Below are positions 15,461-28,704 of a stretch of 37,201 nt of DNA, in pieces. The position numbers and the translations under genes were made by a program. Each line of letters starts with the position of its first letter. Positions within the stretch are counted from its first letter, which is position 1. The DNA comes from Candidatus Yanofskybacteria bacterium CG10_big_fil_rev_8_21_14_0_10_36_16 (lineage in GTDB: Bacteria; Patescibacteriota; Minisyncoccia; 2-02-FULL-40-12; IGHO2-01-FULL-4-A): NCBI GenBank assembly GCA_002794035.1, contig PCXQ01000004.1:251064-288264 (forward strand), given 5' to 3'. The notes under the pieces are model-generated. The model was given only the letters and a program-made list of their open reading frames with translations, did no database searches and had not been told where the DNA came from.

Positions 15461-15907
15461 TTATACGTTTTTAAAGTGTTTTAATTTTGCTTTTTGATTT
15501 TTTTTATCAAAAACAACTGATACTATATCAATTCGCCATTCCAAATCTACTCCCCCCAATTCCCTATCCATGTAATACATTGCGGTTTTAACCAACTTTT
15601 CGTACTTTTTGGAATTAACCCTTGTCTCAGGGTCAAATTCAGGTCCATAATCTTTTTTATTTGCTTTTACTTCAACAAAAATGATGACGCTGATAGCGTC
15701 ATCATTTTTGTGGTCACCTATCTTGCCTGCCCCGAGTATTTTCGAGGGGAGCACAGCCGAATGATCATCATTCGAATCACCTTTGGCTATAATATCAATC
15801 TCACCAAATGACATCTCGTAATTTTTTTCTAATATCTCATAGCCCTTCTCCTGAAGGTATCTTGTTGCAATATTTTCCGCGAGGTTGCCTAAATCTTTAG
15901 TATTCAT
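15461..15907 (-). CDS. yraN: YraN/UPF0102 endonuclease-like protein with an insertion between the D and ExK motifs
   Basis: GNLAENIATRYLQEKGYEILEKNYEMSFGEIDIIAK...IFVEVKANK; insertion GDSNDDHSAVLPSKILGAGKIGDHKNDDAI. Confidence 0.85.
   Translation of the reverse strand: MNTKDLGNLAENIATRYLQEKGYEILEKNYEMSFGEIDIIAKGDSNDDHSAVLPSKILGAGKIGDHKNDDAISVIIFVEVKANKKDYGPEFDPETRVNSKKYEKLVKTAMYYMDRELGGVDLEWRIDIVSVVFDKKNQKAKLKHFKNV
15675..15711. repeat. 16-bp perfect inverted repeat with 5-nt loop inside yraN
   Basis: ACAAAAATGATGACGC-TGATA-GCGTCATCATTTTTGT. Confidence 0.95.
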
Positions 15908-16403: not shown

Positions 16404-16434
16404 TTTTACAAAATTATTTCGCGAGAAACAATTG
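16404..16434 (+). repeat. 31-bp direct repeat, copy 1, containing parS-like TATTTCGCGAGAAACA (16415-16430)
   Basis: TTTTACAAAATTATTTCGCGAGAAACAATTG identical to 17547-17577. Confidence 0.95.
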
Positions 16435-16453
16435 GAATGTACCCCTTTGAGTA

Positions 16454-16483
16454 TTGACACAGAGTAGTGCATTATGCTATTAT
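16454..16483 (+). promoter_or_regulatory. Promoter TTGACA-N18-TATTAT for the wHTH/coiled-coil gene
   Basis: -35 at 16454-16459 and -10 at 16478-16483. Confidence 0.6.
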
Positions 16484-16530
16484 TTTATAATAATTTAGCT
16501 CTTTTATATGTACAAAAAGGAGGCAGAACA

Positions 16531-17490
16531 ATGTCTTTCTTAGAAAACAGGCTTGAAGTGGCAAGAAAAATTATTGACCACATAAGAACCGAAGGATGCA
16601 TAGCTGGCAACATTTCTGGAAAACAATTAGGAGAAATAATTAACGTACCAAAAACCACGGTTAATTATTATCTCAAGGCCCTAATTGACGTAGAAGTACT
16701 AAAACTTGAAGGAGAAAGAAGCCGTGGCAGAGGCAAACAGGGCACCATTACACTAAAAGATGAATTCAAATCTGGTGATAATTGGAAAGAAAAAGTAATG
16801 AGAAAAAAACTTGCTGAAGATAATTTTGGCAACTCATTAAACCGTCAGTACCGAGAAAAAATAGCAACAAAAGGTAGTGTTGCCAAAAAAATTGTTGAAT
16901 ATCTAAGGGTTAATGGTGGGCAAGTTGAAGCAACTGGAAAAAAGATTTCTTCTGAACTAGGAATTAGCCAGCCGGGATTTTCTTATGGTCTAAAAATGTT
17001 AATAAAAGCGAATATTGTCTCAATACCACAGGGATGTAACAAGGGTCCTGGTGACACTCTTTTTGTACTAGAAGAGAAATACAAAGAGGGAGATGACTGG
17101 TTTAAATTAATCACAAAACAGAAACAAGTCAAAGAAAAACCCAAACAAAAATCTCTTTCGGCAGAGAAAAAATCAACAGGGTTAAATTTCCGATCCAAAA
17201 GTCTAAAAGAGCTCATTGAGGTTTATGAAGCTCTCAAGAGTACCCTAAAAGAAAATAGTATTTTAAAATCCAACAACGAAACGTTGAAAAGAGAGAACAA
17301 AAATCTAAAATTAAAGAATGAGCGCTTAGAAGAGTTCTTAGCGAAAGCAAAAAAAAGCAAAGAAGAAGAGCGTCAAGAAGTGGTGGCCCTTAATAAACGT
17401 ATTATCGAACTGAGGTCAGAGGTTGGAAATGTTGGAACAAGATTGAGGTTTGATTCCTCTGGCGTTCAGGTATGCGATAGTGAGCTTTAA
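16531..17490 (+). CDS. Tandem winged-helix DNA-binding protein with C-terminal coiled coil
   Basis: AAGGAGG SD at 16518-16524 before ATG 16531; two HTH repeats (GKQLGEIINVPKTTVNYYLKALI and GKKISSELGISQPGFSYGLKMLI); heptad-rich C-terminus. The track start at 16474 overlaps the promoter. Confidence 0.75.
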   Translation: MSFLENRLEVARKIIDHIRTEGCIAGNISGKQLGEIINVPKTTVNYYLKALIDVEVLKLEGERSRGRGKQGTITLKDEFKSGDNWKEKVMRKKLAEDNFGNSLNRQYREKIATKGSVAKKIVEYLRVNGGQVEATGKKISSELGISQPGFSYGLKMLIKANIVSIPQGCNKGPGDTLFVLEEKYKEGDDWFKLITKQKQVKEKPKQKSLSAEKKSTGLNFRSKSLKELIEVYEALKSTLKENSILKSNNETLKRENKNLKLKNERLEEFLAKAKKSKEEERQEVVALNKRIIELRSEVGNVGTRLRFDSSGVQVCDSEL

Positions 17491-17518
17491 CTAAAATTTA
17501 GCTAAAAAGCCATTGAAT

Positions 17519-17550
17519 GCGCGGGTTAATAATCCCCGCGCTATTTTTTT
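17519..17550 (+). terminator. Terminator GCGCGGG-N9-CCCGCGC then TATTTTTTT
   Basis: 7-bp GC stem plus T7. Confidence 0.75.
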
Positions 17551-17577
17551 ACAAAATTATTTCGCGAGAAACAATTG
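17547..17577 (+). repeat. 31-bp direct repeat, copy 2, containing parS-like TATTTCGCGAGAAACA (17558-17573)
   Basis: Identical to 16404-16434. Confidence 0.95.
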
Positions 17578-17723: not shown

Positions 17724-18815
17724 TTGCTTATTAGTACGCTATCCACAAAATTCACTTCATTAAATAACAAATTTAAAGGCGACAAAGTCGGCTTTTTCTT
17801 TGTATTTACATTGGTTATGAGCGTCCTTATTTTTAAAGGATCCCCTCATGATGGACAAGCAGGCGTGTTAAGCGCCTTTTTTGATAATTACATAGAAGAA
17901 ACAGCTTCTTATATAAGAGGCGCGACATCTTTAGAGCTCGCTGAAGTTAATAGCTTATCTCAAAATTTAAATAGCCCAAGCCAGAGAATTGGCAATTTAT
18001 TTGCTACAATTCAAGGAAATTCCTTAATTTCTTACAGCTCAATAGATACAGATGATGAAACAGACGAAGATATTACAACAAAAACAACAAAGATATCTAT
18101 TTATACAGTCCAGGAAAGCGACACTCTATCTTTTATTGCTGACGACTATGGTGTAAGCGTTAATACAATTGTTTGGGCAAACAACATTAGAAACATTAAT
18201 AGTATCAGCCCAGGCACAGAACTTAAAATACCGCCTGTCAGCGGTATTGTTCATACAGTAAGAAGCGGAGAAACCATTAGTTCCATAGCTTCAAAATATG
18301 GAGTTGAACAAGACTCGATATTGTCATACAACCTACTACCAAAAGGCGTAGACAGCATACAAGTAGGCCAAGAAATAATTGTTCCAGGAGGTAGTATTAG
18401 CGTATCATCATCAACAAAGGCAGTAACAACAAGCGTTACAAGGTTCGCTTATCTCCCAGACCTTGGAGGATATTTTGCCCAACCAACAACTGGTTATAAC
18501 TGGGGATATATACATGGCAGAAATGGAATTGATATAGCAAATTCTTGTGGAACAAACGTTTATGCAGCAGCATCGGGAAATGTTAACTTTGCAGCAACTT
18601 CGGGCTGGAATGGCGGATATGGCAACTTCTTGAGAATAACTCACCCCAATGGCACAGAAACACTGTATGCCCACCTAAGCAAGCTTTTAGTATCCCAAAG
18701 CAATTGGGTAGAGAAAGGGCAATTAATTGCCCTCATGGGCACCACAGGACGTTCTACAGGCTGTCATTTGCACTTTGAGGTACATGGTGCTAGAAACCCT
18801 ATGGCAAAATACTAA
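17724..18815 (+). CDS. Exported LysM (x2) plus M23 peptidase
   Basis: YTVQESDTLSFIADDYGVSVNTI and HTVRSGETISSIASKYGV LysM; TLYAHLSK, GRSTGCHLHFEVHG M23; start uncertain (TTG). Confidence 0.88.
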   Translation: MLISTLSTKFTSLNNKFKGDKVGFFFVFTLVMSVLIFKGSPHDGQAGVLSAFFDNYIEETASYIRGATSLELAEVNSLSQNLNSPSQRIGNLFATIQGNSLISYSSIDTDDETDEDITTKTTKISIYTVQESDTLSFIADDYGVSVNTIVWANNIRNINSISPGTELKIPPVSGIVHTVRSGETISSIASKYGVEQDSILSYNLLPKGVDSIQVGQEIIVPGGSISVSSSTKAVTTSVTRFAYLPDLGGYFAQPTTGYNWGYIHGRNGIDIANSCGTNVYAAASGNVNFAATSGWNGGYGNFLRITHPNGTETLYAHLSKLLVSQSNWVEKGQLIALMGTTGRSTGCHLHFEVHGARNPMAKY

Positions 18816-18851: not shown

Positions 18852-18867
18852 TGTTTCCCACGAAACA
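18852..18867 (+). promoter_or_regulatory. parS-like site TGTTTCCCACGAAACA
   Basis: Perfect TGTTTC/GAAACA half-sites with 4-bp centre. Confidence 0.6.
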
Positions 18868-18880
18868 AAATAAATACACA

Positions 18881-18908
18881 AAAAAACGGACATAATTGTC
18901 CGTTTTTT
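18881..18908. terminator. Bidirectional terminator AAAAAACGGACA-TAAT-TGTCCGTTTTTT
   Basis: 12-bp perfect stem with A/T tracts, between 18815(+) and 18957(-). Confidence 0.85.
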
Positions 18909-18925
18909 GTTTCTTAAGAAACAAA
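18906..18925. repeat. 20-bp perfect palindrome TTTGTTTCTTAAGAAACAAA containing TGTTTC-TTAA-GAAACA
   Basis: Self-complementary; same half-sites as the parS-like sites. Confidence 0.6.
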
Positions 18926-18956: not shown

Positions 18957-20561
18957 TTATAATTCATTTTTAACTATTCTATACCCAATAGCTTCTGCGA
19001 TGTGCGGGACCTGTATCTGATTACTTTCATCGAGATCGGCTATAGTGCGGGCTATCTTTAATATCTTGTGATAACCTCTGCCAGAAATATTATGTGTCAC
19101 AAATGCACTTTTTATTAATTCCTCAGCATCTTTTGGCAACTTACAATGTGTTTCTATCTCTTTAATGCCCATTTCAGAGTTTGTTAATGTTTTAGAACCA
19201 AGAAACCTTGCTTTCTGGATAGTCCTTGCTTTTTCAACAATTTGTCTTATTTCGGTACTGTTTTGACCAGTTGAAGGGCCTGTCATTTTGTCATATGTTT
19301 CCCGCGAAACATTAATTTGAATATCAATTCTATCCAAAAGGGGACCCGACATTTTTTTATGATACTTATTTATTGAATTTGCATTACAAACACATACTAA
19401 TTTGTCATCACCAAAATTGCCACATGGACATGGGTTCATAGCTGCCACCAACAAGAATCTGGCAGGAAATTTTGCAGTACCAGATGCACGCGACACGACA
19501 ACCACCCCATTTTCAAGAGGTTGTCGCAAACTTTCAAGAACGCTTCTTGGAAACTCCGGCACTTCATCAAGAAAAAGCACTCCGCGATGAGCAAGGGTTA
19601 TTTCGCCAGGTCTCGGAGAAGTGCCACCGCCAATAACAGCAACAGATGATGTCGTGTGATGAGGGCTTCTAAAAGGTCGGGTTGTAACAATGGGGGAGTT
19701 AGCACTAAGCATTCCGGCAACACTGTAAATCTTAGTTATTTCAAGTGCTTCGTCATAATCCATAGCAGGCAAAATACCCGACAACGCTTTAGACAGTAAC
19801 GTTTTACCGCCTCCTGGAGGGCCTGACATCAATATATTATGATTCCCTGCAGCTGAAATAACCAAAGCCCTTTTAGCGCTTTCCTGCCCCTTTATTTGCG
19901 ATATATCAATAAAGTCTTCTGCGTCATCATTATTACCAATAAAATCATTATATTTTATATTTTCATGAGGAATTAAATTAATTTCACCATGTAAATAACC
20001 AACTGCCTCACTAATGTTTTTTATAGAAATAACGTCTATTCCAGAAACCAAAGAAGCTTCATTAGAATTTTCAGTTGGTAAAACAACTCTTTTAAAGCCA
20101 TTTTTTACAACCATTTGTACAATAGGCAAAACACCGTTTATTTTCTTAACGCTTCCATCAAGAGAAAGTTCTCCAAGAAAAACAGTTTCCGAAGCATCAA
20201 ACTTTATCTGAGAAGTAGCCAAAAGATATCCCAGGGCAATAGGCAAATCATAAAGTGAACCGCCTTTTTTAATATCAGCAGGGGCGAGATTTATGACAAT
20301 ACGCCTGTTTTTCTTTATTGGGGGAGTAAACCCGCTATTTTTTATAGCTGAACCTATCCTGTCTTTTGACTCATCCACCGCTTTGTCAGTTAAACCAACG
20401 ATATTAAATGAGTGCAGTCCAGGGCTTGCATCTGCCTCAACCTCAACAGGAAAAGCATTAAGCCCCACAACAGCAGCAGAAAAAATTCTTACGGAAGTTG
20501 GCTTTGGTTTAGTTTTTTTAGAGTTATTCATTGAAAGGAATATAGCGTAAATTACATTCAA
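18957..20561 (-). CDS. comM: ComM/YifB-family Mg-chelatase-like AAA+ ATPase
   Basis: SPGLHSFNIVGLTDKAVDESKDRI, GPPGGGKTLLSKALSGILP, RPFRSPHHTTS, RGVLFLDEVPEF. Confidence 0.93.
   Translation of the reverse strand: MNVIYAIFLSMNNSKKTKPKPTSVRIFSAAVVGLNAFPVEVEADASPGLHSFNIVGLTDKAVDESKDRIGSAIKNSGFTPPIKKNRRIVINLAPADIKKGGSLYDLPIALGYLLATSQIKFDASETVFLGELSLDGSVKKINGVLPIVQMVVKNGFKRVVLPTENSNEASLVSGIDVISIKNISEAVGYLHGEINLIPHENIKYNDFIGNNDDAEDFIDISQIKGQESAKRALVISAAGNHNILMSGPPGGGKTLLSKALSGILPAMDYDEALEITKIYSVAGMLSANSPIVTTRPFRSPHHTTSSVAVIGGGTSPRPGEITLAHRGVLFLDEVPEFPRSVLESLRQPLENGVVVVSRASGTAKFPARFLLVAAMNPCPCGNFGDDKLVCVCNANSINKYHKKMSGPLLDRIDIQINVSRETYDKMTGPSTGQNSTEIRQIVEKARTIQKARFLGSKTLTNSEMGIKEIETHCKLPKDAEELIKSAFVTHNISGRGYHKILKIARTIADLDESNQIQVPHIAEAIGYRIVKNEL
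19296..19311 (+). promoter_or_regulatory. parS-like site TGTTTCCCGCGAAACA inside comM
   Basis: 14/16 match to canonical TGTTTCACGTGAAACA. Confidence 0.6.
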
Positions 20562-27789: not shown

Positions 27790-28704
27790 ATGAATCTATC
27801 GGATTTAAAAAATCAATTTCTGGAATATCTTGAAATAGAAAAAAACCGATCTCCAAAAACCGTAGAAAATTACAACCACTATCTAAACAGGTTTATTTTA
27901 TTCAGCAAAGCAAAGGCACCATCTGATATTGATTTGGAGCTTGTTCGCAAATTCCGCATTCACTTAAATCGTTTTGCAGATGAATCAGGTAATCCCCTAA
28001 AAAAAGTAACACAAAATTACCACATTATTGCCTTGCGTGCATTTCTAAAATACATGGCTAAAAGAGATGTTAAAACTCTTACAGCTGAAAAGGTTGAATT
28101 GGCCAAACAAGAAGATAGAGAAGTTACATTTCTTGAATCCCATGAACTTGACCGGCTTTTAAATTCTCCCGAAGGAACATCCCTCTCTGGCCTTAGAGAC
28201 AAAGCCATACTTGAAACTCTTTTTTCAACAGGTTTGCGCGTATCAGAGCTTTGCTCACTAAACAGAGACGAGGTAGATCTTCAAAGAGGGGAATTCGGCG
28301 TAAGAGGAAAAGGATCAAAAATAAGAGCTGTGTTTTTGTCTGATACCGCAATCAAATCAATCAAAAACTATATTGATAAAAGAGTTGATGTTGATAAGGC
28401 ACTTTTTGTTCGCATTCCACCCGATGAAAAATTTGAAAGATTTGAAAAACTACGATTAACACCGCGTTCTATTCAAAGAATTGTTAAAAAACATGCCATT
28501 AAAGCCGGAATAATAGGCAAAAAAGTAACTTCACACACCCTTCGCCACTCTTTTGCTACAGATCTTCTCCGGAACGGAGCCGATATTAGGTCGGTTCAGT
28601 CACTGTTGGGTCATGCATCTGTTACAACAACTCAGATATACACTCATGTTACCGATAAACAACTCCGCGAAACACACAAAAAATATCACAGCAAACAAAA
28701 ATAA
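27790..28704 (+). CDS. Tyrosine recombinase, XerC/XerD-type
   Basis: TGLRVSELCSL, SHTLRHSFATDLLRNGADIRSVQSLLGHASVTTTQIYTHV. Confidence 0.93.
   Translation: MNLSDLKNQFLEYLEIEKNRSPKTVENYNHYLNRFILFSKAKAPSDIDLELVRKFRIHLNRFADESGNPLKKVTQNYHIIALRAFLKYMAKRDVKTLTAEKVELAKQEDREVTFLESHELDRLLNSPEGTSLSGLRDKAILETLFSTGLRVSELCSLNRDEVDLQRGEFGVRGKGSKIRAVFLSDTAIKSIKNYIDKRVDVDKALFVRIPPDEKFERFEKLRLTPRSIQRIVKKHAIKAGIIGKKVTSHTLRHSFATDLLRNGADIRSVQSLLGHASVTTTQIYTHVTDKQLRETHKKYHSKQK

Follow-up and report, generated by a model that had tools for sequence, protein, structure and literature searches.

Two identical 31-bp direct repeats bracket a single gene for a winged-helix/coiled-coil protein in the stretch of DNA analysed here (the window; 37,201 nucleotides). 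Judged from sequence, these repeats are very likely parS sites of a chromosomal ParABS system with altered specificity, one of which was probably duplicated as the gene was inserted, and the sites probably help to sort the chromosome into daughter cells. ParB, encoded together with ParA on another contig, would load on five palindromes at approximately 16.4-19.3 kb and spread along the DNA, and ParA would pull the ParB-bound DNA apart. The palindromes would constitute the centromere that the order conserves at its yraN-M23-comM locus, with a core that appears to depart from the canonical parS TGTTTCACGTGAAACA at position 6 in step with a changed ParB residue 201, and one parS site with its surroundings (identical over 31 bp, similar over 39 bp) would have been duplicated as the single gene inserted upstream of the M23 peptidase gene. 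The features of ParABS systems that were found comprise the ParB domains, a ParA-type ATPase gene adjoining parB, clustered palindromes and origin-proximal sites, the last of these in three relatives.

A search of the window located exact copies of the 31-mer TTTTACAAAATTATTTCGCGAGAAACAATTG at 16404-16434 (copy 1) and 17547-17577 (copy 2), both on the plus strand, on either side of the gene at 16531-17490, as an earlier note on this DNA had reported. The weak similarity that the note saw beyond the repeat was also recovered, a comparison of both copies giving 39 nt at 92% identity. Shuffled sequences gave an expectation of 0 for an exact 31-bp repeat, and no third copy with up to 3 mismatches was found in the genome (877 kb, 7 contigs, 97% complete). 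Copy 1 begins 50 bp upstream of the −35 element of the accessory gene, and the T run after the terminator of this gene runs into the start of copy 2, which lies upstream of the M23 gene. Each copy contains a 16-bp imperfect palindrome (16415-16430 and 17558-17573; TATTTCGCGAGAAACA on the plus strand of copy 1) whose minus-strand reading, TGTTTCTCGCGAAATA, resembles parS and differs by 1 mismatch from the relaxed parS pattern TGTTTCNCGNGAAACA. The TTTC-GCGA-GAAA core could make a GNRA-capped stem and hence act as an RNA hairpin in transcripts, but the repeats folded no better than shuffles (z ~ −0.6 and +0.9), scanning the window for Rfam families and for tRNAs yielded none, and the sites occur in coding and intergenic settings alike, which leaves an RNA element with a negligible probability.

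Using TGTTTCNCGNGAAACA with up to 2 mismatches, we found 9 matches in the whole genome, of which five lie within 2.9 kb of one contig (starting at window positions 16415, 17558, 18852, 18908 and 19296) and surround the M23 peptidase gene and comM; the remaining four are scattered, each with 2 mismatches. The three palindromes to the right of the repeats had been missed by the earlier note. One of them, TGTTTCCCACGAAACA (18852-18867; 1 mismatch), lies in the gap between M23 and comM, and a weaker one, TGTTTCTTAAGAAACA (18908-18923; 2 mismatches), abuts a bidirectional terminator (18881-18908) located between the two. The third, TGTTTCCCGCGAAACA (19296-19311; 0 mismatches), is within comM and codes on the minus strand for Val-Ser-Arg-Glu-Thr. 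On the basis of synteny, the conserved parS region is bordered on the left by a yraN (UPF0102) homologue (15461-15907, minus strand) and on the right by a comM (Mg-chelatase-like) homologue (18957-20561, minus strand), with the gene for an M23 peptidase with LysM-like repeats (17724-18815, plus strand) as the conserved neighbour of the cluster; these names are our assignments from family knowledge. None of the sites has the canonical sequence; their main departure from it is at position 6, and two of them also differ in the central CG. This sequence, while the most frequent form of parS, is not strictly required. The term “parS-like”, which the earlier note had applied to the flanks, appears right for the DNA, as the repeats would belong to a conserved cluster of parS-type sites near the origin.

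Because the search pattern was picked after the repeat had been seen, the decisive test lies in the relatives. We therefore compared the M23 loci of 36 relatives and the window (37 loci), in which the block fpg-polA-tsaE-yraN / M23-comM-dksA-pnp is kept in essentially all relatives, the exceptions being a local rearrangement in G037 and stretches where a contig runs out. Across these loci, 54 sites fall within −1.5 to +3.5 kb of the M23 start compared to 2 in the other 328 kb, a density 50-fold that of the flanking DNA, and at least one site was present in 26 genomes. The real pattern gave 56 matches versus 2.8 +/- 2.5 (maximum 11) for 200 composition-matched shuffled palindromes, and a reversed-pattern control run on 97 genomes gave almost none. 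At 11 of the 37 loci no site within 2 mismatches was found near M23, and loci that lack sites while ParB is apparently complete include G012, G017, G029, G034 and G040. Individual sites are located upstream of M23, within its coding sequence (about 255-270 bp in), in the M23-comM gap or inside comM. Sites of the parS type also occur at several loci of Paceibacteria that do not belong to the order; these lie a few kb downstream of the peptidase and mostly have A at position 6.

The distribution of the sites also bears on whether a recombinase integrated the gene as a cassette, with the 31-mers as its att or dif sites. Exact direct repeats do flank a single gene, and a Xer-type recombinase is encoded in the window at 27790-28704. 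However, the core of the repeat is a member of a multi-copy family of palindromes spread over about 26 genomes and extending into the comM coding sequence, the element has no internal recombinase and no second copy of it was found in the genome, and relatives without the element have several related sites instead of one lone unoccupied site. We consider such a cassette extremely unlikely; a dif/XerH site, considered separately, was dropped on finding the palindrome family. In many relatives the parS-type site within comM is in frame and codes for Val-(Ser/Pro)-Arg-Glu-Thr, so that these bases seem to double as codons and centromere. The distance from M23 to yraN, like that from M23 to comM, ranges from ~0.1 to >2 kb among relatives (L073, L083 and L096, among others), suggesting that the DNA flanking M23 is a spot where accessory genes come and go.

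In the genome itself, a Soj-like ParA and a 296-aa ParB share one operon on a contig (C6) different from that of the sites. The ParA reading frame (L060:615-1376) lies immediately upstream of parB, and its translation contains a deviant Walker A motif, KGGTAKTT. The ParB matched TIGR00180 at 188 bits, above the cut-off, with conserved N-terminal and HTH domains, and matched solved ParB, Spo0J and Noc structures in the PDB (E ~1e-40 to 1e-50). ParB was present in 89 of 97 genomes; none was found in G006, although this genome has sites, and the gene may be absent from the assembly. Only partial ParB matches, with no aligned HTH, were observed in G008 (L068) and G014 (G014:C30:20294-20557), two genomes of one family, and no parS-type sites were found at the M23 locus of either genome; their comM codes for Ile-Pro-Gln-Glu-Asn in place of Val-(Ser/Pro)-Arg-Glu-Thr.

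The origin was located via relatives, as the dnaA gene of the genome sits on another of its contigs. In three relatives, dnaA shares a contig with the M23 locus and lies 28-54 kb from it: ~44 kb in G010, ~54 kb in G009 and 28 kb in the single-contig genome G012 (dnaA at 385 kb, M23 locus at 413 kb). In the latter, the GC-skew minimum and sign change, sampled over 20 stretches of 10 kb, coincided with dnaA. No recognisable site was found in G012, which therefore backs the position of the locus and not that of the sites.

Taken together, the system is alike to chromosomal ParABS (Spo0J/ParB with parS) in its 16-bp palindromes in an origin-proximal cluster, its soj/spo0J-type ParA-ParB operon and its recognisable ParB N-terminal and HTH domains. 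It differs in that position 6 of the half-sites is mostly not A, that the order has T, A or S at ParB residue 201 instead of the reported invariant G, and that parAB and the sites are on different contigs. In the Caulobacter ParB-parS complex, whose residue numbering we use, guanine 1 of parS is contacted by R173 and position 6 faces residue 201; R173 and G201 have both been described as absolutely conserved in ParB (PMC7383237). We found T, A or S at residue 201 in every full ParB aligned from the order except that of G011, and mostly G in aligned ParBs from outside it. In parallel, position 6 of parS in the order is shifted from A towards G, C or T: A occurs in 0/36 half-sites of A201 genomes, 0/4 of S201 genomes and 11/52 of T201 genomes (11/92 combined). 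In G201 genomes outside the order, a hand count gave A in 61 of 74 half-sites among the matches listed, or 35 of 48 among the matches listed when G093 was left out.

G011, the sole member of the order with Gly201, has A6 sites. Its ParB (L081, L145) has lost R173 and kept G201, and two TTTCACGTGAAA sites at its locus lack G1 on at least one arm and keep A6, as the structures in PMC7383237 would predict; G011 possibly holds a replaced or diverged ParB-parS pair. S201 in G072, from outside the order, keeps A6, so residue 201 alone is insufficient to explain everything. Since residue 201 and the sites are also common by descent, the covariation stands on few independent changes. On balance, we lean slightly towards the reading that this order of Patescibacteria rewired its centromere code, with Gly201 changing to Thr, Ala or Ser as parS position 6 moved off A; this reading takes in the symmetric changes TGTTCCGCGCGGAACA and a comM-embedded site that perhaps constrains part of the ComM sequence. 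A change of position-6 specificity that also involves residue 201 is known from Noc (PMC7383237), a ParB-fold relative whose NBS site is ATTTCCCGGGAAAT. The ParB of the genome has R, A, E and T at residues 173, 179, 184 and 201; it thus keeps R173 and lacks the Noc signature Q173/K179/K184/R201, and unlike NBS its sites retain G1 on at least one arm. Its site preference is not readable from the residues alone.

The literature searched, which left most subscription journals outside, yielded no work pairing parS and ParB with Patescibacteria or Saccharibacteria. The system is of a known kind (ParABS), in a lineage for which no description was found in that literature, with an apparent specificity change added. 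It indicates a likely centromere location for a group of ultra-small uncultured bacteria in which the cell cycle has hardly been studied, and offers a natural series of ParB-parS pairs with specificity altered at a residue called invariant, through which the evolution of centromere recognition becomes testable with purified proteins.

The gene between the repeats is not a conserved part of this centromere. Its reading frame (16531-17490, plus strand) is open and codes for a 319-aa protein, preceded by a promoter-like TTGACA-18-TATTAT (16454-16483, plus strand; a match to consensus only) and followed by a terminator-like element (17519-17549, plus strand) with a GC-rich hairpin at ~17519-17541 and a T run, in agreement with the promoter and terminator proposed earlier. 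The two winged-helix regions and the (F/Y)K(S/E)GD(N/D)W motifs described in the earlier note were likewise recovered, with Pfam matches to HTH_24 at 25-53 and to MarR_2/HTH_5 at ~123-164 and the motifs FKSGDNW and YKEGDDW (pattern (F/Y)KxGDxW). The long coiled coil after them is consistent with a helix predicted at 225-302 by a single-sequence model (mean pLDDT 62). Of the HMM and structure search that had been proposed for this protein, the Pfam part thus returned winged-helix matches, and the PDB sequence search returned coiled-coil noise only. Weak matches to PHROGs, replication-O-like among others, were obtained but given no weight, and no close relatives were found in genome contigs or viral contigs. 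Homologues occur in three of 387 genomes of the class, this one included; those of G020 (flanked by rplI and ctpA) and G006 (flanked by rpsB and rpmE) each combine a single winged helix with a GDxW motif and a coiled coil, and no repeat was found beside either.

Gene and site are therefore separable, the gene occurring without the site in G006 and G020 and the site without the gene in the nearest relative, G004. The earlier note had held that relatives with the gene and no flanking repeats would speak against a tie between the two, and G006 and G020 are such relatives. Two of its suggestions were weakened by these genomes. Firstly, the protein might control its own gene by binding the 31-mers as operators, given that copy 1 lies upstream of the promoter, that the protein has two HTH regions and that the site is dyad-symmetric; but the palindrome is found in relatives without the gene, at M23 and comM positions unrelated to it, and is lacking at both other homologues, so that such an autoregulator is highly unlikely. 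Secondly, we consider it very improbable that the protein acts at the centromere as an anchor similar to Bacillus RacA and was retained there for that. The gene does lie between two parS sites, and the likeness to RacA is in architecture only (HTH plus coiled coil, encoded near the centromere region). However, only three genomes of the class have the gene, the other two copies are beside ribosomal genes and away from the centromere, and neither sequence kinship to RacA nor a RacA family among the Pfam matches of the protein was found.

The third suggestion, a cassette inserted between target-site repeats, fits the gene best, although the repeats would be duplicated parS and not target duplications made by a transposase. 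In G004 a single site lies upstream of the same M23 peptidase, with a different gene in place of the accessory gene, and copy 2 aligns with this site; copy 2 is thus probably in the ancestral position, and copy 1 is probably the one that was duplicated with the insertion. A comparison of direct site pairs showed that flanks are rarely shared in other relatives, which makes the 31-bp identity a peculiarity of this genome, and the 15 bp of extra identity around the two repeat cores, unmatched in other direct site pairs, suggests that one copy was probably duplicated on arrival of the gene. We conclude that the gene is probably a recent insertion alongside which one parS site was duplicated. Recombination through the repeat is a possible route, although this is a guess, and ParB spreading from copy 1 may, speculatively, affect transcription of the accessory gene. 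In G020, an unrelated 167-aa reading frame adjoining the winged-helix homologue is enclosed by a 48-nt direct repeat (85%; L004:2255-2302 and 2927-2974) that copies the 3′ end of a ctpA-like protease gene, a further case of a single inserted gene with a duplication at its flanks.
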